Assembly: GCA_021787845.1 (NCBI GenBank)
Contig: JAJYLH010000027.1
Span: 1-64,000 of the forward strand
From: Myxococcales bacterium
GTDB lineage: Bacteria > Myxococcota > Myxococcia > Myxococcales > JAJYLH01
Length of the DNA: 64,000 nucleotides
Direction: 5' to 3'
In this document: positions 9,455-58,981 of the stretch, one piece after another
How the letters are laid out: each line of letters begins with the position of its first letter
Position numbering within the stretch: the first letter of the stretch is position 1
The notes under the pieces: model-generated
Told to the model about the DNA's origin: nothing
The model's input: the letters and a program-made list of their open reading frames with translations, nothing else
The model's database searches: none
Position numbers and translations under genes: made by a program

Positions 9455-9754
9455 TCACCGCGTCATCGGGACGCGGATGCTGAGGACCGTGCGCCCGTCG
9501 ACGTCGCCAATCATCAGCCCGGCGAAGACGACGACGAAGAGCACGGCGGTGACCAGCGTCAGGCGGCTGCCCCAGCTCTCCTCCGACAGGTGCATGAAGA
9601 ACCAGGCGACGAGCGACCCCTTCGTCAGCGCAATCGCGTAGGCGACCGCGACGCTCAACGCGCCCACGGTGACGAACGACGAGAGGAGCGAGGTCGTCGT
9701 CAGAACCAGGAGCGCGACGTAGAGGGCGACGTACTTCATCGTGTGCGACGGCAT
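9455..9754 (-). CDS. coxD: cytochrome c oxidase subunit IV (caa3 type)
   Basis: 99 residues with three predicted membrane helices and the subunit IV family pattern (ALTKGSLVAWFFMHLSEE). A small accessory subunit of the caa3 oxidase. ATG 9754 is preceded by AAGGAG at good spacing. It is the last gene of the minus-strand respiratory cluster. The gap to coxC (9755-9933) carries an inverted pair of hairpin repeats. Confidence 0.85.
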   Translation of the reverse strand: MPSHTMKYVALYVALLVLTTTSLLSSFVTVGALSVAVAYAIALTKGSLVAWFFMHLSEESWGSRLTLVTAVLFVVVFAGLMIGDVDGRTVLSIRVPMTR

Positions 9755-9807
9755 CGCGAGGGCTCCTTGAGAGGTTGCGCACCAACACCCAGCGCGCTGG
9801 ACAACGG

Positions 9808-9892
9808 ACCGCTCATCCCGAGCGCAGTCGAGGGACGAGCGTGAAGGCCCGCGCAAGCTCGCTCATCCTTCGACTGCGCTCAGGATGAGCGG
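9808..9892. repeat. REPIN-like inverted hairpin pair (coxC-coxD gap)
   Basis: Forward copy at 9808-9840 (GCTCATCCCGAGCG...GACGAGCG) and reverse copy at 9861-9892 (GCTCATCCTTCGACTG...GGATGAGC), facing each other with 20 bp between. Confidence 0.85.
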
Positions 9893-9933
9893 TACTCGCC
9901 TACACTTCGCGTTCGCATCTTCGCCGCATCCTT

Positions 9934-10557
9934 TCAGTGCATGAGGTAGAAGCTCGGCCAGAGGAAGAGCCAGACGATATCGACGAAGTGCCAGTAGATA
10001 CCGACGACCTCGACGGTCAGGTGATATTCGCCGGTGTACCGCCCGCCGCGCATGCGCACGAGGAGGCCGCCGAAGAGAATCACGCCGATGAGCACGTGCA
10101 GGGCGTGCAACCCGGTCATGACGAAGTACATCGTGAAGTACAGGAGCGCGCCGCGGCTCGGGAGCGCGGGATCGCTGAACGCCGCGCCCCACTCGATGCC
10201 TTCGCGGAAGTGCTCGGAGTATTCCACGCCCTTGATCACGAGAAACGCGAGGCCGCAGAGGATGGTCAGGACCAGGAACACGGCGAGCTGGCGGCGTTTC
10301 CCCTCGCGGATGGCGGCGACCCCCAGGGCGACGAAGAGGCTGCTCGTCAGGAGGATGTAGGTATTCGCGGTGCCGAGCCAGAGCTTCGCGTGCCGTGACG
10401 CCTCCTCGAAGTCGCGGGTGTAGTGGGCGCGAAACCCGGCGTAGAGCGCGAACAGCGCCCCGAAGAAGAGCACCTCCGACCCGATGAAGACCCAGATCCC
10501 GAAGCGCCCGCTGCGCTCCTGGTGCCCGAGGTCCGCGTACTGCTCGTGCGGGGTCAA
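9934..10557 (-). CDS. coxC: cytochrome c oxidase subunit III
   Basis: 207 residues with five membrane helices, typical of short bacterial subunit III. Motifs include WVFIGSEVLFFGALF near the start and YFTMYFVMTGLHALHVLIG with the family His pair, ending in WHFVDIVWLFLWPSFY. It stabilises the subunit I core of the haem-copper oxidase. The start appears to be TTG 10557, with weak upstream ribosome-binding sequence; no better start sits at the conserved N-terminus. A 268-bp repeat-rich gap separates it from coxA. Confidence 0.9.
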   Translation of the reverse strand: MTPHEQYADLGHQERSGRFGIWVFIGSEVLFFGALFALYAGFRAHYTRDFEEASRHAKLWLGTANTYILLTSSLFVALGVAAIREGKRRQLAVFLVLTILCGLAFLVIKGVEYSEHFREGIEWGAAFSDPALPSRGALLYFTMYFVMTGLHALHVLIGVILFGGLLVRMRGGRYTGEYHLTVEVVGIYWHFVDIVWLFLWPSFYLMH

Positions 10558-10622
10558 GAGACGGCTCTCGCGGCCCGGAGAGGCGCCGCCTCACCCCCCG
10601 CTGCCGCGCGGCTAATCGGATC

Positions 10623-10668
10623 TTCGTTCCGCTCGTCCCTCGACTGCGCTCGGGATGAGCGGAACGAA
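10623..10668. repeat. hairpin repeat, reverse copy
   Basis: Core CCCTCGACTGCGCTCGGG with outer arms TTCGTTCCGCTC and GAGCGGAACGAA, perfectly complementary. Confidence 0.9.
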
Positions 10669-10721
10669 AGAGCGATGGGCCTCAGGCAATCGACGGTCGG
10701 CAAACACGCCGCCTGACTCAA

Positions 10722-10758
10722 CCCGCTCATCCCGAGCGCAGTCGAGGGACGAGCGGGT
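10722..10758. repeat. hairpin repeat, forward copy
   Basis: Core with outer arms ACCCGCTC and GAGCGGGT; inverted with respect to the copy at 10623-10668. Confidence 0.9.
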
Positions 10759-10825
10759 CGGCCCGGAGGTGAGGGGGCGCGCGGCAGCGGGGGGTGAGGC
10801 CGTTCCCTCTCGGCGACAAACCTTT

Positions 10826-12445
10826 TCACTTCACGCGCTCCTCTCTCCAGTAGTCGTACGCCTCGTAGTCGTCGGGGAGCACGATGGGCTCGGGGCCGAA
10901 GTTGTGCACCGGCGGCGGGGAGGTCGTTTCCCATTCGAGGCCGCGCGCGTTCCAGGGGTTGTTGCCGGCGACGGGCCCTCGAACGGCCGCGTAGGTGAGG
11001 TAGAGGAGCGTGAGCACGAGGCCCCCGGCCAGCACCGAGGCGCCGGTGGTCGAGGCGACGTTGAGCATCTGGAACTGCGGCGGGTAGTAGTAGGAGCGGC
11101 GGGTCATCCCGGCGTTCCCGAGGAGGAACTGGGGGAAGAACGTCAGCAGAAAGCCCACCGACACCATCAGCGAGGCGATGATCGCCCATGTCCGGTTGTA
11201 GAGGCGGCCGGTGAACTTGGGAAACCACCAGTGCAGGCCGCCGAGGTACATGGTGAGGGTCCCCCCGACCATGATGAAGTGGAAATGCGCCACCACGAAG
11301 TAGGTATCGGTCCAGTGCACGTCCAGACCGACCGAAGCCAGCGCGACGCCCGTCATGCCGCCGAAGATGAAGAGGAACATGAACGCGACGAAGTAGATGA
11401 ACGGCGCCGTCACGGTGATGGAGCCCTTGTAGAGGGTCGCGGTCCAGGTGAACACCTTGATCGCGGAGAAGACGGAGACCAGCATGGTCAGGATGCCGAA
11501 GGCGCCGGCGTCGAAGATGGAGATGCCCGCGACGAACATGTGGTGGCCCCAGGCCAGGAACCCGACGAAGGCGATGCCGAGCGAGGAGTAGGCGATCGCC
11601 TTGTAGGAGAAGGGGTTCTTCCGCGCCGCGCCGCAGACCAGCTCGCTGACCACCCCGAACGCCGGCAGAATCATGATGTACACCGCCGGGTGCGAGTAGA
11701 ACCAGAAGAGATGTTGGTAGAGCACCGGGTCGCCGCCCAGCGCCGGGTCGAAGAGACCGAGATGGAACGCGCGGTCGAGCCCGATGAGGATGAGGGTGAT
11801 GCCCAGCACCGGCGTCGCCAGCACCTGCATGATGCTCGTCGCGTAGATGGCCCAGACGAAGAGCGGCATCTTCATCCACGTCATGCCCTTCGCCCGCATG
11901 GTGTGCGTCGTGACGATGAAGTTGATGCCCGTCGCGATGGAGGAGAACCCGATGACGGTGACGCCCGCGACGACGACGAGAACCATCGTCGGTGTCTCGA
12001 GGCTGAAGGGTGTATAGAACGTCCAGCCGGTGTCGATGCCGCCTTCGAGCAGGCCCCACAGAACCATCGCCGCGCCCGCGAGGTAGATGTAGAAGCTCGC
12101 GAGGTTCAGCCGCGGGAAGGCGACGTCGCGGGCGCCGAGCTGGATGGGGAGGAGGAAGTTCCCGAAGCCCGCCGGGATGGCGGGAATCATGAAGAGCCAC
12201 ACCATGATGATGCCGTGCGCGGTGAAGAACCGGTCGTAGCTGTGGGCGTCGACGATGGTCCCGCCGGGAGTCAAGAGCTCGATGCGGATGAGCATCGCGA
12301 ACGTGCCGCCGATCATCAGCGCCAGCGCCGTCGCGAAGAAGAACAGGATGCCGATGCGCTTGTGATCCTTCGTCGCGAGCCAGCCCCAGAGGCCGCTCGC
12401 CGCGTTGTAGAGATGCTGCCGCGGAAAGGTGGGCGAAGAAGTCAT
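10826..12445 (-). CDS. coxA: cytochrome c oxidase subunit I
   Basis: 539 residues with twelve predicted membrane helices. Haem and copper ligands are visible in MVWLFMIPAIPAGFGNF-like segments, in HPAVYIMILPAFG (CuB His) and in HFHFIMVGG (haem a/a3 His). The proton-channel segments look canonical. It is the catalytic subunit that reduces oxygen to water. ATG 12445 is used; frames extending upstream run through a GATCGGTC array and are unlikely to be translated. Order coxB-coxA-coxC-coxD downstream of the act genes is the usual ACIII/caa3 arrangement. Confidence 0.95.
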   Translation of the reverse strand: MTSSPTFPRQHLYNAASGLWGWLATKDHKRIGILFFFATALALMIGGTFAMLIRIELLTPGGTIVDAHSYDRFFTAHGIIMVWLFMIPAIPAGFGNFLLPIQLGARDVAFPRLNLASFYIYLAGAAMVLWGLLEGGIDTGWTFYTPFSLETPTMVLVVVAGVTVIGFSSIATGINFIVTTHTMRAKGMTWMKMPLFVWAIYATSIMQVLATPVLGITLILIGLDRAFHLGLFDPALGGDPVLYQHLFWFYSHPAVYIMILPAFGVVSELVCGAARKNPFSYKAIAYSSLGIAFVGFLAWGHHMFVAGISIFDAGAFGILTMLVSVFSAIKVFTWTATLYKGSITVTAPFIYFVAFMFLFIFGGMTGVALASVGLDVHWTDTYFVVAHFHFIMVGGTLTMYLGGLHWWFPKFTGRLYNRTWAIIASLMVSVGFLLTFFPQFLLGNAGMTRRSYYYPPQFQMLNVASTTGASVLAGGLVLTLLYLTYAAVRGPVAGNNPWNARGLEWETTSPPPVHNFGPEPIVLPDDYEAYDYWREERVK

Positions 12446-12494
12446 GGGGAGCCCCTCGCTCGCCGGCCCGTGACTGGGGGCCGCATCGTCAACG

Positions 12495-12544
12495 CCGATC
12501 GGACTGATCGGACCGATCCGACCGATCGGTCCGATCGGTCCGAT
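12495..12544. repeat. GATCGGTCS array, copy 3
   Basis: Five to six imperfect 9-bp units (GATCGGACT, GATCGGACC, GATCCGACC, GATCGGTCC) in the coxB-coxA gap. Confidence 0.88.
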
Positions 12545-12638
12545 TGCGTGGGACGGCGCCGGCCTGCGAAACCCGGGCGCGGCAGCCAGGGGCACGACCG
12601 ACCTCCCTGGGCTGGTCTCGGGAAGCGGCGGTCAGCCC

Positions 12639-13700
12639 TCATTCCAGCCCTCCCGGCTGCACGGGCGGCGGGTTCGGGTGCGCGACCCGCTTGGACCGGA
12701 GCGACAGGCTCTTGATGAGCTCGATGATCGCCCCCACCTCCGGCGGCGTGAGCTGTCCCCGGTAGCTGGGCATGATCGGCGTGAAGCCCTTCACGACTTT
12801 CGCCTTCGGATCCATCATCGACTGCGTGAGATACGCCGCGCCCGCGCGGACGACGCTGCCGTCCTGCATCGTCACCTCCGAGCCCCACAGGCCGGCCCAG
12901 GTCGGCGCCAGGAACTTCGTCCCGTCGAGGCTGTGACAGCGCAGGCATCCCTTGTCGGCGGCGACCCGTTCGCCCTCCTGCGCGAGGGTGCTGCGTTGGG
13001 CCTGGTCGAAGGTCGGGCGCACCCCGTTCGGCGGCGTCGGCAGCTCGGCGGCGATGGGGCCTTCCGGGTTTCGCAGCCACTCCTCGAACTTCTGCGGCGG
13101 GAGCACGACCACGTCCCCGAGCATCCGCGAATGGCCGACGCCACAGTATTCGGCGCAGCGGATGGGGAAGGTTCCGAGCTCGACCGCCTTGAACCACGCG
13201 AGCGTATAGCGCCCCGGCACCACGTCCTGCTTCACCCGGAACGCCGGGACGAAGAAGCTGTGGATGACGTCGCGGGAAGTCATGATCAGCTTGACCGGCC
13301 GGTCCTCGGGAACGAAGAGCACGCCCGCCGAGGCCTGGCCCGTCGCGTAAGCGAACTTCCACATCCATTGCTTCGCGGTGACGTAGACCTCGACGCAGTC
13401 CTTCGGCGGCGTCTCGAGCTGGATGTAGTCGTGGAACCCGACGATCCAGATACCGATGAAGAGCCCGAGGATGCTGACGATGACCCCCGCCTCGATGCGG
13501 ATGTTGCCGGTTACCCGAGGCGTCACCGACGGCCGGCGGCTGGTGTGATAGCGGATGGTGAACCCGAGGATGGCACCGAAGACCACGGTCGCGCCGACGA
13601 TCGAGATGCCGATGACGAAGTAATGCAGGTAGTCGATGCGCCGCGCCAGGCTCGACGCCTGCGGCGGGAGGTTCAGGAGCCAGCGCGCGAGGTCGTTCAT
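12639..13700 (-). CDS. coxB: cytochrome c oxidase subunit II with cytochrome c domain
   Basis: 353 residues. Two N-terminal membrane helices (about 20-95) anchor a periplasmic cupredoxin domain carrying the CuA ligands in CAEYCGVGHSRM. A C-terminal cytochrome c domain with CLRCH and a distal Met (IMPSYRGQLT) makes this the caa3 type. It takes electrons from alternative complex III and passes them to subunit I. ATG 13700 starts the conserved N-terminus; upstream in-frame sequence is hairpin repeat. Confidence 0.95.
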   Translation of the reverse strand: MNDLARWLLNLPPQASSLARRIDYLHYFVIGISIVGATVVFGAILGFTIRYHTSRRPSVTPRVTGNIRIEAGVIVSILGLFIGIWIVGFHDYIQLETPPKDCVEVYVTAKQWMWKFAYATGQASAGVLFVPEDRPVKLIMTSRDVIHSFFVPAFRVKQDVVPGRYTLAWFKAVELGTFPIRCAEYCGVGHSRMLGDVVVLPPQKFEEWLRNPEGPIAAELPTPPNGVRPTFDQAQRSTLAQEGERVAADKGCLRCHSLDGTKFLAPTWAGLWGSEVTMQDGSVVRAGAAYLTQSMMDPKAKVVKGFTPIMPSYRGQLTPPEVGAIIELIKSLSLRSKRVAHPNPPPVQPGGLE

Positions 13701-13719
13701 GCGAGCGCGCGCCTCCTCT

Positions 13720-13830
13720 CGTTTCCGCTCGTCCCTCGACTGCGCTCGGGATGAGCGGAAACGCGAGGCGACTCGGGACGAGCGGAAACGCGAGGCGACT
13801 CGGGACGAGCGGAAACGAGAGGCCACTGCC
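13720..13830. repeat. hairpin repeat plus 27-bp direct repeats
   Basis: A reverse hairpin copy at 13720-13763 has arms CGTTTCCGCTC and GAGCGGAAACG. Its right half is then repeated twice more as GACGAGCGGAAACG(C)GAG with GCGACTCGG spacers, to about 13823, apparently local duplication of one hairpin arm. Confidence 0.85.
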
Positions 13831-13877
13831 AACGACGCGAACCCGGTGCCGGACTCGACCGCTGCCTTGTGCCCAGA

Positions 13878-13949
13878 CCGCTCATCCCGAGCGCAGTCGA
13901 GGGACGAGCGGGCCGTGCCTGCACCCGGACACTCACGTGTCCGGCTCCG
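13878..13949. repeat. hairpin repeat followed by CACGTG-type repeat
   Basis: Forward hairpin copy at 13878-13912 is followed at 13915-13949 by a second family (CCCGGACACTCACGTGTCCGG), also found near 18.9, 19.05 and 63.9 kb. Confidence 0.85.
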
Positions 13950-13974
13950 TCTGCGCCAACCGAACGCCGGAGGT

Positions 13975-14343
13975 TCATCGCAGCGGCACCCCTCCCTTCT
14001 TCTCCCTCTGCACCATCAGCTCGAAGGCGCGGTCGATGGGAATCCGGACGATGCCACGCGGCTTGTCGACCCAGCGGTAGGAATCGAGATCCCTCTGCTC
14101 TCGGGCGTCGAGGTCCCGCGTTTGGTGCGTCGAGCGGATGAGGGTCCGGTAGACGCGGCTTATCGTGTCGGGCGCGTGGCCGTGGATGCTGGTCCGGACA
14201 TGGAGGCGCCCGCCGATCCAGACCGTGACGATACCCAGCGAGAGGCAGACGACGAGCAGCGCCGTCAGCAGAATCAGGAGGAGCTTCCGGTGATGGAGCC
14301 CCTCCGGCTGCGCCGTCACGACGAAGGGCCGCTCGTCGCTCAT
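13975..14343 (-). CDS. small membrane protein of the act-cox cluster
   Basis: 122 residues with one membrane helix (about 21-43) and a periplasmic C-terminal part ending in WVDKPRGIVRIPIDRAFELM. Small proteins with this C-terminal pattern are common between act and cox genes in Myxococcota. The function is not established; a role in assembly of the complex III / oxidase supercomplex is a guess from position. Its ATG overlaps the actF stop codon by 4 bp, so it is translationally coupled. Confidence 0.7.
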   Translation of the reverse strand: MSDERPFVVTAQPEGLHHRKLLLILLTALLVVCLSLGIVTVWIGGRLHVRTSIHGHAPDTISRVYRTLIRSTHQTRDLDAREQRDLDSYRWVDKPRGIVRIPIDRAFELMVQREKKGGVPLR

Positions 14344-55275: not shown

Positions 55276-57102
55276 CTACCGGTCGTTTCGCACGATGGCG
55301 GCGATCACCCGGGTGACCGCGGCGCGCTGGTCGTCGGTCAGCTCGCCGCCGAGGGTGCTCAGGTCGTAGTGGCGCGAGCGGGTGAAGCGCGGGGCGTCCT
55401 CGCCGGGCCGGCGCGCGCAGAGCTCCAGCTCCACGCCGTCGCCCGTCGCCGGCTCGAGTCGTACCCGCAGCCGCCCCGGCGCCTGGCGCATCTTCCCGAA
55501 CCGCCACCCGGGAGCGAATTCGCCGTCGATCGGCAGCGGCGTAACCAGCTTGCCGAACCGCTGCCGTAGCTCACCAGCGTTGTCGTCCTGCTCCTCACGC
55601 GCCGCGGCGAATCGCCGGTACAGGTCCTCAGCGTCGAGCGTCGCGGGGTCGGCGGCCGAGCGGAGCGACTCCAAGAGGAAGGCGAAGAGCGCGACCTCGT
55701 CGCGGTTCTTCGTCCGTTCGGAGAGCTCGGCCGCGAGGCGCGCGAAGCGGGCGACCTCCGGCTGCGCGAACCGCCAGGGATGCCCCGGGTAGTAGCCGTA
55801 GCGGCGCGCGCTGTCGCTGCCTTCGTCTTCCCACCCGCCGGTCAAGAGGCTGTCGCGTTCGGCGAGGTAGTAGAGCGCGGTGTCGGGATACAGCCGCACC
55901 CGGGAGAGCAGGAGGCTTCCGCGCAGCCGGTCGAACCGCGTCCGGCGGACGGCGGCGAGGTTGTGCTCCAGGTCGGCGAGCGTGGTCCAAGGCGTGAAGA
56001 GCACGAACCCGAACGCGGCGTGGGACAAGTCGAGCGCGTCCTGGTGCGCCTCCTTCCAGGCCCAGAGCCGCTCGAGGAACTCGACGGTGGCCTGCGCCGT
56101 CGTCCCTTTGTTGAAGCGGTCCAGCTCGGCTTGGGAGAAATTCTCGACCCCCACGAGGAACGGCGCGATGCGCATCCGGCTGCGCCCCGCCGCTTGGAGC
56201 GCCCGCTCGAACCGTTTCTCGCTTCGCAGGAGCCAGTCGGCGCGGGTTTCCAAGAGCACCGTGAACCCGCCGAGGCCCTCGCGCTCGCAGCTCTCCACCA
56301 CCTCCGTCAGGTAGCCGAAGGGGTTCTGGTCCTTGAGAACGAACAAGGTCCGCTCCGGCGCTCCTGCTCGGAGGGTGCGGATCTGCTCCAGGACCGAGGC
56401 CGCGGTGGCCTCGTTGCTGTCGCCCTGGTACCGGTTCCCCGTGGTGCAGAAGGCGCAGCCGCGTCCGAGCCCGGCCGGGAGCTGGACCCCGGCGTAGAGC
56501 GGGTTCGCGCGGGCGTCGGCCTGGTAGGGGCAACCCGCGTTGCCGAGGATCGAGAAGCTGCGGGTCGGCGGGAGCGCTTCCGGGTTCACCACCTGGGGGT
56601 GCAGGTTCGGCGCGAACGCGAGCGGCCGCTCGGGGACGACCGAGGCGCCTGACGGCGCGATGAACCGGTCGCCCTCGCGCCGCGATGAGCCGAGCGGAAC
56701 CGGTCCCGACCCTCGCAGGTGCGCCAAGAGCGGCGGCAGCGTCTGCCGAAAGTCGCCGCCACAGATCCAATCGGCCGGCGGATCGTCGAGCGCATGCTCG
56801 CCGCGCAGGCTGATGAAGGTCCGGTCCGGGAGCGCCAAGCGGAGCCTCGCGATGACGTCGCGGCTCCACACCCGTTCGAAGACGATGGTGTCGTAGTCGC
56901 CGAGCATCGCTGCCAGGCGCCGCTCCACCTCGGCGTCAGCGCCGCCGCCCAGCACGGTGAGGACCAGGTCGTTCGCGATGCCGAGCGCGGTCAGGTCGCC
57001 GGAGACCAAGGCGAGCTCGCGGTCGTCGAGGAACGACCGGTCGCTGTGGCTCTGGAAGCTCAAGAGGGCGACGCGCGGCGGCGCGCGCGGGCGAGCCGGC
57101 AT
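55276..57102 (-). CDS. radical SAM protein with unusual Cys spacing
   Basis: 608 residues. An N-terminal alpha/beta region (about 1-130) resembles a B12-binding or Rossmann fold without a clear DxHxxG. The radical SAM core follows: Cys191, Cys216 and Cys219 (GCPYQADARAN...GRGCAFCTTG), giving CX24CX2C instead of the usual CX3CX2C, then TLFVLKDQNPFGY and FVLFTPWTTLADLE. The C-terminus (from 470) is helical. It would cleave SAM to modify an unknown substrate. ATG 57102. It lies 34 bp downstream of one CRYDC protein gene on the same strand, with a second, paralogous one divergent beyond that. Confidence 0.78.
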   Translation of the reverse strand: MPARPRAPPRVALLSFQSHSDRSFLDDRELALVSGDLTALGIANDLVLTVLGGGADAEVERRLAAMLGDYDTIVFERVWSRDVIARLRLALPDRTFISLRGEHALDDPPADWICGGDFRQTLPPLLAHLRGSGPVPLGSSRREGDRFIAPSGASVVPERPLAFAPNLHPQVVNPEALPPTRSFSILGNAGCPYQADARANPLYAGVQLPAGLGRGCAFCTTGNRYQGDSNEATAASVLEQIRTLRAGAPERTLFVLKDQNPFGYLTEVVESCEREGLGGFTVLLETRADWLLRSEKRFERALQAAGRSRMRIAPFLVGVENFSQAELDRFNKGTTAQATVEFLERLWAWKEAHQDALDLSHAAFGFVLFTPWTTLADLEHNLAAVRRTRFDRLRGSLLLSRVRLYPDTALYYLAERDSLLTGGWEDEGSDSARRYGYYPGHPWRFAQPEVARFARLAAELSERTKNRDEVALFAFLLESLRSAADPATLDAEDLYRRFAAAREEQDDNAGELRQRFGKLVTPLPIDGEFAPGWRFGKMRQAPGRLRVRLEPATGDGVELELCARRPGEDAPRFTRSRHYDLSTLGGELTDDQRAAVTRVIAAIVRNDR

Positions 57103-57136
57103 GGCGGGAAGGAGTATAGGCGAACGGCTTCGCCGC

Positions 57137-58102
57137 CTATCCTTCCAGCGTGAAGAGCCGCTCCGTCGTCAGAACGAGGAACCGTTCGATCGCCTTCGCG
57201 ATCGCCGGCGAGCGCGCGCGCACCTGCGCGTGAAGCGCGCGAGCGTACGCGAGTGACGGCCCGCAGTCGTAGCGGCAGACGAAGTGCGAGACGAGCGACC
57301 AGCGAAAGTCGAGGTTGTTCAGGAGCGGCTCGAAGCGTCCCGGCGGCGTCGCGGCGAGCGCGAGCCTTCGCAGCGCGTCGTTCGGCTCGGTGTGGTGCGC
57401 CTGGAAGCGCTCGATGCAGCAGGCGGGGTAGCCGAGCGCCTCGCCTTGCGCCCGCACCGTTTCACGCGCGCGCTCGTCGGACGTGCCGGGCAGGAGGACG
57501 AGATCGGTCTCGGCCACCGTCTGCGCTTGCGCCGGGCTTTGCGCGACGAAGAGCAGCGTGTCGCCTTCCAGCCGCGCCTGGAACCGCTCGTCGGCGACCG
57601 GCTGCGCGAGCACCGTCAGGCCGAGGTCTCGCGCGAGCGATTGCGCGGTGGGCAGGATGGCGCGCGAGACGACCTGCCGGCAGGCGGGCCGCAAGCCAGC
57701 GAGCACGGCCAGCCATTCGAGCGGCGGCATCGCCGGGTGGTAGCGCGGTCCCGAGGTTTCGAGGAAGAAGCGGGCGTAGGTGAGCTCGGGAATCGTCCGC
57801 TCGCGAGCGCGAAGCCGGTCGACGAGGGCGTCGAGCGCCAGGCGCCCGCCGTCGGGCAGGTCGCCTTCGTGACCGACGAGGAACAGCCGCGTCGCGCGAT
57901 ACGACGGGCCGCCGGCGATGGCCGGCTCGAGCCAGACGGTGAAGCGGCGCGTGCCGTCGCCGAGGGTGATTTCGAACATGCGCGAGCACTCGACCCGCTC
58001 GACGGAATACCCGGCGGCGAGGCGGCGGTCGTGGAAGAGAAGGCGCGACAGCTCGTCGGCGACGGCGACCGCGCTTCTCGGTGAGCTCTCGGCGCCGGGC
58101 AT
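57137..58102 (-). CDS. DUF483-like Cys protein A
   Basis: 321 residues of a poorly known family: GYPACC (224-229) and VCRYDC (275-280) carry four conserved Cys that could bind a metal or Fe-S cluster; the segment resembles DUF483 proteins. The first half is alpha/beta. It precedes the radical SAM gene by 34 bp and is paralogous in its C-terminal half to the product of 58289-58981. Possibly a substrate, carrier or cofactor protein for the radical SAM enzyme. ATG 58102. Confidence 0.65.
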   Translation of the reverse strand: MPGAESSPRSAVAVADELSRLLFHDRRLAAGYSVERVECSRMFEITLGDGTRRFTVWLEPAIAGGPSYRATRLFLVGHEGDLPDGGRLALDALVDRLRARERTIPELTYARFFLETSGPRYHPAMPPLEWLAVLAGLRPACRQVVSRAILPTAQSLARDLGLTVLAQPVADERFQARLEGDTLLFVAQSPAQAQTVAETDLVLLPGTSDERARETVRAQGEALGYPACCIERFQAHHTEPNDALRRLALAATPPGRFEPLLNNLDFRWSLVSHFVCRYDCGPSLAYARALHAQVRARSPAIAKAIERFLVLTTERLFTLEG

Positions 58103-58288
58103 CGGAAGGTGCAGTATCGCTGGCGCCCGGGGCGTGTCCACTCGCGGCGGGGCGATCGCCCGGGTGGCGAGCCGATCCCTGGGCGGCCGGGAGAGCAGGG
58201 CGGGAGCCGTCACGGCGGGCGACAGCGGAGCCGGGAGGGGCCTCAAGAGGAGGCCGGCGGCGTGCGAGGACCGGACGAGGAGGGCGGG

Positions 58289-58981
58289 ATGGATTTCTCG
58301 GGCACGGAGTGGCTGGCGTTCGAGGCGGGCATCAAGCCGGCGGTGCGGGCGATGCTGCGGCCGGAGGAGGCGGACGATTTCGAAGCGCGGGTGCGGGCGC
58401 GCGGGTGGGGGCTTTCGACGACCGCGGGCACGTTCTGGTCGCAAGAGCCGCGGGTCATCGCGTATGTCGCGCGCGGCGACGCGGAGGCCGAGGCGATTCG
58501 GGAAGCCGAAGCGCCGACGCTACCCGGCATCGGTGCCGACCCCACGAGGCGCGACGATCCGGCGGCCTATGCCCTGGTCGGTGAGCTGCTGGGCTACCCC
58601 TCCTGTTGCGCGCGGTCGTATGCGGCGCGGCTCGCCGTCGGCGCCCGCACGCGGCTGAACGGTCAGAGCGCGGAGGAGGACTTCTGCATGGCCGAGAAGG
58701 CCGCGCGGGACAGCCGGCGTTTCCTCGGGCGGCTGAACGACCTCCTGGGCGCCGACGAGCCGCGGCTGATTCCGTTCTATCCGTGCCGCTACGACTGCGA
58801 GGCGGCCGCGGCGTATGCCGGCGCGGTGCTCGAGGAGATCGCCCGCCGGTCGGGCGGCGACGGCGAGCGCTGGCGCGGGGCGCTGTGCGCCAGGCGGGGC
58901 ATCGGCGTCAGCGGCGCGCGCTACCCGGGCGGCGGCCAGCCGGCCGAAGAAGTGCTGTGGATCGATTTCAAAGAACTCTGA
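58289..58981 (+). CDS. DUF483-like Cys protein B
   Basis: 230 residues from ATG 58289 with GAGGAGGG upstream. It repeats the pattern of protein A: GYPSCC (102-107) and PCRYDC (165-170), plus Cys133 and Cys200. The gene is divergent from protein A across a 186-bp gap, so the two could share a control region. Function unknown; association with the radical SAM gene is from position and shared motifs. Confidence 0.65.
   Translation: MDFSGTEWLAFEAGIKPAVRAMLRPEEADDFEARVRARGWGLSTTAGTFWSQEPRVIAYVARGDAEAEAIREAEAPTLPGIGADPTRRDDPAAYALVGELLGYPSCCARSYAARLAVGARTRLNGQSAEEDFCMAEKAARDSRRFLGRLNDLLGADEPRLIPFYPCRYDCEAAAAYAGAVLEEIARRSGGDGERWRGALCARRGIGVSGARYPGGGQPAEEVLWIDFKEL

Follow-up and report, generated by a model that had tools for sequence, protein, structure and literature searches.

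What do a distant radical S-adenosylmethionine (SAM) protein and two proteins sharing a cysteine motif do together in one bacterial locus? The question arises at positions 55276–58981 of a 64-kb window, the whole stretch of DNA analyzed here, on contig JAJYLH010000027.1 of a Myxococcales bacterium (GCA_021787845.1; 6.2 Mb in 153 contigs, 98% complete). The locus consists of three genes that we call rsamX, cysA and cysB, and cysD denotes the Cys domain (GYPxCC...CxxxC) of which the latter two are the window members. The three genes probably make up an accessory module of an extended, HxsA4-type maturation pathway for His-Xaa-Ser (Hxs) peptides, a pathway dispersed in the genome and resembling those of ribosomally synthesized and post-translationally modified peptides (RiPPs).

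It is strongly supported that rsamX and cysD belong together as partners. The genome scan with the rsamX domain used a three-row alignment, and cysD played no part in fetching the loci. It returned 42 loci in the Myxococcota, including cultured Polyangium with homologues of about 62–63% identity, in the Elusimicrobia and in one genome each of the Planctomycetota and the Oligoflexales. A cysD, either fused or adjacent, is present at 22 of them, and several of the remaining loci are short contigs. The first-pass annotation had regarded the Cys proteins as possible partners of the enzyme and had named a conserved neighborhood as the check on that idea. The neighborhood is conserved, and the partnership is borne out also by fusion and co-occurrence.

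Single open reading frames (ORFs) joining rsamX to cysD occur at 14 distinct loci, the duplicate records L034/L060, L035/L059 and L041/L069 being excluded from the count. One half of the fusion at L034 aligns to the window rsamX (469 amino acids, 34%) and the other to the window cysA (206 amino acids, 33%), which directly supports a physical partnership. From the cysD side, a profile built on the cores of the window genome's four cysD proteins detected relatives in 11 of 195 genomes of the phylum, and several of these have the GYPxCC domain at the C-terminus and rsamX as the N-terminal half of one protein. A 1439-amino-acid protein of L056 strings together rsamX, a pair of canonical radical SAM domains and cysD, and the Polyangium homologues of rsamX contain in the same chain a further radical SAM domain, of the canonical kind. 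Across the 195 genomes, cysD is found in 9 of the 10 that have rsamX (Fisher p 2e-11). The genes of other genomes were called with a simple gene caller.

The link to the peptides appears in genome content and in gene clusters. HxsB is present in 13 of the 14 cysD genomes as compared with 41 of the 195 phylum genomes overall (p 3e-9), and the sole cysD genome lacking it is a 70%-complete one. Counted by genus, the two co-occur in 10 of 11 (p 2e-7). These tests were picked after the first clusters had been seen, and kinship is allowed for at the genus-level count alone.

Physically, rsamX-cysD of genomes G070 and G068 shares clusters with numerous radical SAM genes, with HxsD and HxsD-like genes, with HxsB scoring over the NCBIfam cut-off, and with a 96-amino-acid peptide that has an (HGS)n end (HxsA). 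The G070 cluster (contig C6, about 109–135 kb; L034 with L093) packs about 14 radical SAM genes into 25 kb, as counted by Cys motif with six confirmed by Pfam. Some of these are two-domain genes, one is a peroxiredoxin fusion and another is a methyltransferase fusion. At the Elusimicrobia locus L083, rsamX adjoins a 166-amino-acid HxS-repeat peptide (HxsA) plus HxsB/HxsD-like genes, and at L056 genes that read as HxsD and HxsB cluster with rsamX-cysD.

Smaller arrangements recur in genomes G101, G113 and G053, where an HxsB-like gene and a small peptide with the C-terminus HSSHSD, HSSHGD or HASHAS lie at a distance of 1–5 kb from cysD. The peptide genes are at L110 5943–6152, L111 11375–11566 and L037 4177–4359. 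They are candidate precursors of an HxS mini-type, and the one tested, that of L110, matched no NCBIfam model.

The window genome has two HxsA genes, HxsD and HxsD-like on contig C104, and HxsB (548 bits; cut-off 370) on contig C58. The HxsA pair is tandem with very long (HGS)n tracts (L103, about 11699–12900; 65.3–66.6 kb of C104), and one of the two, scanned as HxsA4, scores 142.5 bits with a cut-off of 55. A collagen-like Pfam match of the HxsA peptide was taken to be an artifact of the Gly-Ser-His repeats. The Hxs genes of C104 and C58 are orthologous, at 45–65% identity, to genes of the G070 cluster. The three window genes thus appear to form one part of an Hxs pathway whose genes are scattered over the genome.

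The known system concerned is the HxsA4/HxsC4/HxsD-like subtype of Hxs (NCBIfam NF038313, NF038332, NF038315, TIGR03976 and TIGR03978). Its HxsA with (HGS)n, HxsB, HxsD and HxsD-like share genomes, and often clusters, with rsamX and cysD. However, rsamX and cysD are outside all NCBIfam models, most HxsB genomes are without them, and the window genome keeps its Hxs genes on contigs other than that of rsamX, cysA and cysB.

The same genes could also serve small-molecule or cofactor biosynthesis without any peptide, rsamX-cysD tailoring a secondary metabolite together with nitrogenase-like reductases, halogenase-like and Gfo/Idh proteins. NifH-/NifDK-type genes near rsamX at L040, L041, L065 and L071 favor this idea, as do Gfo/Idh fusions to radical SAM (L053) and to rsamX-radical SAM (L061) and a halogenase-like flavoprotein near the cluster, recognized by sequence reading alone. 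However, at L114 an HxsA gene is the immediate neighbor of nitrogenase-like genes, which may thus share one pathway with the peptide, and the co-occurrence of cysD with HxsB in 13 of 14 genomes speaks for a peptide. We judge a peptide-free pathway unlikely.

Several neighbors are recorded here for their own sake. The NifH-/NifDK-type genes adjoining the HxsA peptide gene of L114 span 9489–14285, and L078 is one more locus with such genes near rsamX. The Gfo/Idh fusions are at L053 12353–15310 and L061 9488–13888. Polyangium and relatives have a B12-binding-type radical SAM gene of about 875 amino acids beside cysD and the rsamX-radical SAM fusion (L046 5450–8077, with counterparts in L044, L045 and L048–L051). 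Its best match in the window genome is 33% over 254 amino acids (contig C119).

The rsamX gene (55276–57102, minus strand) encodes 608 amino acids from ATG and is single-copy in the window genome. Its designation as radical SAM in the first-pass annotation is just distantly right. The modeled fold is of the cobalamin type, whereas the Radical_SAM model PF04055 gives 17.3 bits, under its gathering cut-off of 29.5, and the canonical CX3CX2C occurs in 0 of 39 rsamX sequences. Instead, all 39 have C-x(23-28)-C-x2-C, in the form C-x(23-28)-C-x-F-C, and the three Cys, GxExF, NKG and PWT are near-invariant across distant phyla. The window version, C-x24-C-x2-C, is the putative [4Fe-4S] loop CPYQADARANPLYAGVQLPAGLGRGCAFC at residues 191–219 (56446–56532, minus strand), whose Cys are invariant in 39 of 39 homologues.

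Structurally, a natural 885-amino-acid rsamX-cysD fusion was modeled by AlphaFold2 with a predicted local distance difference test score (pLDDT) of 87 and a predicted template modeling score (pTM) of 0.81. The model has the partial TIM barrel fold of radical SAM enzymes, and its best fold matches in the PDB are TsrM (E 3.7e-9), CysS (1.5e-7) and MiaB (6e-6), with target TM-scores of just 0.43–0.48 for TsrM and CysS. An rsamX profile search matches OxsB as well (E 2.9e-4). In the fusion model, the first Cys comes after strand 156–159 and the loop lies ahead of the long helix 205–222. Because strand-Cys and CxFC-helix are placed as at the usual radical SAM cluster-loop site, the Cys segment may be read as a candidate lengthened [4Fe-4S] cluster loop.

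The N-terminal domain of rsamX is Rossmann-like and a candidate cobalamin-binding domain, the corrinoid protein 1y80 matching it with a target TM-score of 0.62 and a weak E of 0.036. As modeled, rsamX is a family of the cobalamin-type radical SAM fold for which no family model exists. It differs from TsrM, whose own motif is the canonical CX3CX2C (PMC8992657), in the C-x(23-28)-C-x2-C spacing. It differs also from the cobalamin-dependent radical SAM enzymes TsrM, CysS and OxsB together in that it additionally carries or recruits cysD.

The missing CX3CX2C could mean that rsamX is a structural Fe-S or Zn protein without radical catalysis of its own, the chemistry being left to canonical radical SAM enzymes whose genes lie elsewhere. 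The canonical domain that the Polyangium homologues have in cis would suit such a division of labor. However, the near-invariance of the three Cys, GxExF, NKG and PWT over distant phyla fits an active site, and other Cys spacings do work. Departures from the standard spacing are not unusual among radical SAM enzymes (PMC8992657), and Dph1-Dph2 is functional with CX105CX129C and CX21CX234C (PMC11048331). A non-catalytic rsamX is accordingly given little probability.

The partner genes are cysA (57137–58102, minus strand; 321 amino acids from ATG at 58102) and its divergent paralogue cysB (58289–58981, plus strand; 230 amino acids from ATG). As the first-pass annotation had described, cysA is upstream of rsamX on the same strand with 34 bp between its stop and the rsamX start, and both Cys proteins carry the motifs exactly. 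They are GYPACC at 57416–57433 and CRYDC at 57263–57277 in cysA (minus strand), and GYPSCC at 58592–58609 and CRYDC at 58784–58798 in cysB (plus strand). In the 22-sequence alignment from many genomes, GYPxCC...CxxxC, with CxxxC the general form of CRYDC, is invariant and contributes four invariant Cys. The motifs are not a matter of chance, because they are invariant in 22 sequences and because the paralogues are found by cysA.

The window genome has four cysD proteins, and a search with cysA recovers the other three, namely cysB and the paralogues on contigs C92 and C37. The C37 gene is a divergent neighbor of a canonical radical SAM gene. The C92 paralogue (L005 9540–11366) has an N-terminus that reads as Gfo/Idh-like, and Pfam gives DUF483 alone there. 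A single-protein cysA scan of genome contigs gave no match.

Against the DUF483 model (PF04467; cut-off 25 bits), cysA with 12.3 and cysB with 21.9 fall below, while the C92 paralogue with 29.0 and the standalone cysD of L059 with 30.0 rise above. Hence the resemblance to DUF483 goes beyond the mere motif to which it had been credited, and cysD is, as judged from sequence, a divergent DUF483 relative. Its core GYPxCC...CxxxC overlaps the DUF483 family, whereas its N-terminal alpha/beta part with an AGLKP-like motif is additional. To our knowledge, DUF483 has no known function.

The core blocks of the cysA model are mostly at pLDDT 85–98. A Thermus phage relative of cysD has His in place of the first Cys of CxxxC (His-x3-Cys), and since metal ligands tolerate a Cys-to-His change, cysD is predicted to bind a metal or an Fe-S cluster. 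Compared by sequence with solved structures, cysD had only weak, unrelated matches, and Foldseek with the cysA model gave nothing at E <= 0.001 in the PDB or viral libraries. Fold matches of cysA to NleE and 2guk (target TM-score 0.64; E 0.01–0.02) are too weak to assign a function.

From the computed partnership, conserved motifs, fold class and genomic Hxs link, we infer cobalamin use, metal binding, a substrate and a reaction as follows. rsamX would be a radical SAM enzyme of the cobalamin type whose [4Fe-4S] loop is lengthened to C-x24-C-x2-C. Since its Rossmann-like N-terminal domain probably binds cobalamin, it would most likely transfer a radical or a methyl group, for example by C-methylating residues of the (His-Gly-Ser)n tract. 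cysA, and perhaps cysB too, would provide in trans the four-Cys domain that homologues have in cis. This domain, probably holding a metal or an Fe-S cluster via CC and CxxxC, would dock on rsamX and either present the peptide or pass electrons.

The HxsA-type His-Xaa-Ser peptides are predicted to be likelier substrates than the Cys proteins. Among the options that the first-pass annotation had listed, peptide modification is the best supported, through the Hxs link, and nothing positive was seen for modification of tRNA or a small cofactor.

Some facts weigh against assigning the window module to Hxs peptide maturation. No HxS peptide is found within the 64-kb window or at the closest Polyangium loci. 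The window's link to Hxs is co-occurrence in the genome, not adjacency, and Polyangium was compared at the locus level alone. Moreover, cysD is not a core part of Hxs because 28 of the 41 HxsB genomes are without it, and radical-SAM-rich genomes that collect both could yield part of the association. As to the models, the N-terminal third of cysA is poorly predicted, mostly at pLDDT <60, and it is the fold alone that points to cobalamin binding by rsamX.

A related module is in print. Thermus phages Cumys and phiMa have a module of radical SAM, DUF483 and a third gene, published in 2024, and DUF483 fusions to radical SAM domains are mentioned there (PMC11437467). Its authors suggest DNA modification from a deazapurine gene context in cyanobacteria (PMC11437467). 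The phage module resembles ours in pairing a DUF483-type protein with a radical SAM enzyme, and hhalign shows its DUF483 protein to be a homologue of cysD (97.6%, 3.7e-12); this phage protein, annotated as DUF483, has no PF04467 match. The radical SAM enzyme of the phages, in contrast to rsamX, is a canonical one that scores 60 bits with PF04055, and the window cysA and rsamX matched nothing in phages by tblastn.

The third gene of the module in Cumys (PQ109079; L091 9446–12676) encodes a His-Xaa-Asp/Ser repeat protein near tail/baseplate genes. In the distant phage phiLo (L092 4427–12906), two His-Xaa-Asp repeat proteins lie near a homologous pair of radical SAM and DUF483 genes. Such repeat proteins would fit protein or peptide modification better than the published DNA modification. 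The phage module thereby gains an alternative reading, and the published idea may need revision.

Were nucleic acid, either DNA or tRNA, the target in bacteria as proposed for the phages (PMC11437467), the presence of the tRNA-modifying MiaB among the lower fold matches would be in keeping. However, the third phage gene codes for a repeat protein and not for an enzyme acting on nucleic acids, cysD repeatedly has HxsA/B/D genes in its vicinity, and the window proteins have no PADLOC or PHROG match. Reading through the loci brought no deazapurine genes to notice, and no systematic search was made for them. Nucleic-acid modification is decidedly improbable.

Lastly, the GYPxCC/CRYDC proteins are very improbable as rsamX substrates, an option of the first-pass annotation that casts them as Cys-rich precursor proteins, since small Cys-motif proteins do adjoin the radical SAM gene and Cys-rich peptides are common radical SAM substrates, but these are conserved, folded domains of 230–450 amino acids (core pLDDT mostly 85–98), cysD sits inside the enzyme as one of its domains at 14 loci, is fused also to canonical radical SAM domains (L056) and follows a Gfo/Idh-like N-terminus (C92), and short HxS-tailed peptides exist as separate genes beside it.

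The remaining features concern the gene boundaries and the surroundings. A longer cysA ORF from TTG reaches 58444 and adds a low-complexity Arg/Pro-rich extension, and a 290-amino-acid version of cysB from GTG adds an Arg-rich one. Between the two ATG starts lies a divergent intergenic region of 186 bp (58103–58288). The flanks look unrelated to the three-gene set, with argF-/argB-like genes on one side and chemotaxis genes on the other. Curated libraries leave the set almost invisible: no NCBIfam model reaches its cut-off for rsamX, cysA or cysB, and PADLOC, with its anti-phage defense models, and PHROGs give zero matches.

The first-pass annotation's statement that no pathway with this gene set had been described was partly wrong, in view of the phage module (PMC11437467) and the NCBIfam models for HxsA4, HxsC4 and HxsD-like. 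The open-license literature searched holds no record of the rsamX family, its motif or its link with cysD to Hxs peptides. The Hxs peptides are catalogued by NCBI, with no report of their product in that literature. What appears to be new is the rsamX family together with the peptide link, the link between DUF483 and radical SAM having been published before.

In summary, DUF483-like proteins are now tied to His-Xaa-Ser/Asp repeat proteins in bacteria and phages, and the name rsamX now designates a radical SAM family that has an unusual cluster motif and lies outside all family models. The cultured Polyangium strains and the natural single-chain fusions are open to direct tests. More tentatively, it is possible that rsamX is a new cobalamin-type radical SAM class, defined by the C-x(23-28)-C-x2-C loop, that works alongside partners from the DUF483 family and as many as about 14 radical SAM genes within 25 kb, joined in certain lineages by nitrogenase-like reductases, to produce a His-repeat peptide with very extensive modifications, which might be a metal-binding peptide cofactor. 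If true, this would be the first functional assignment for DUF483, common to the His-Xaa-Asp repeat proteins of the Thermus phages.

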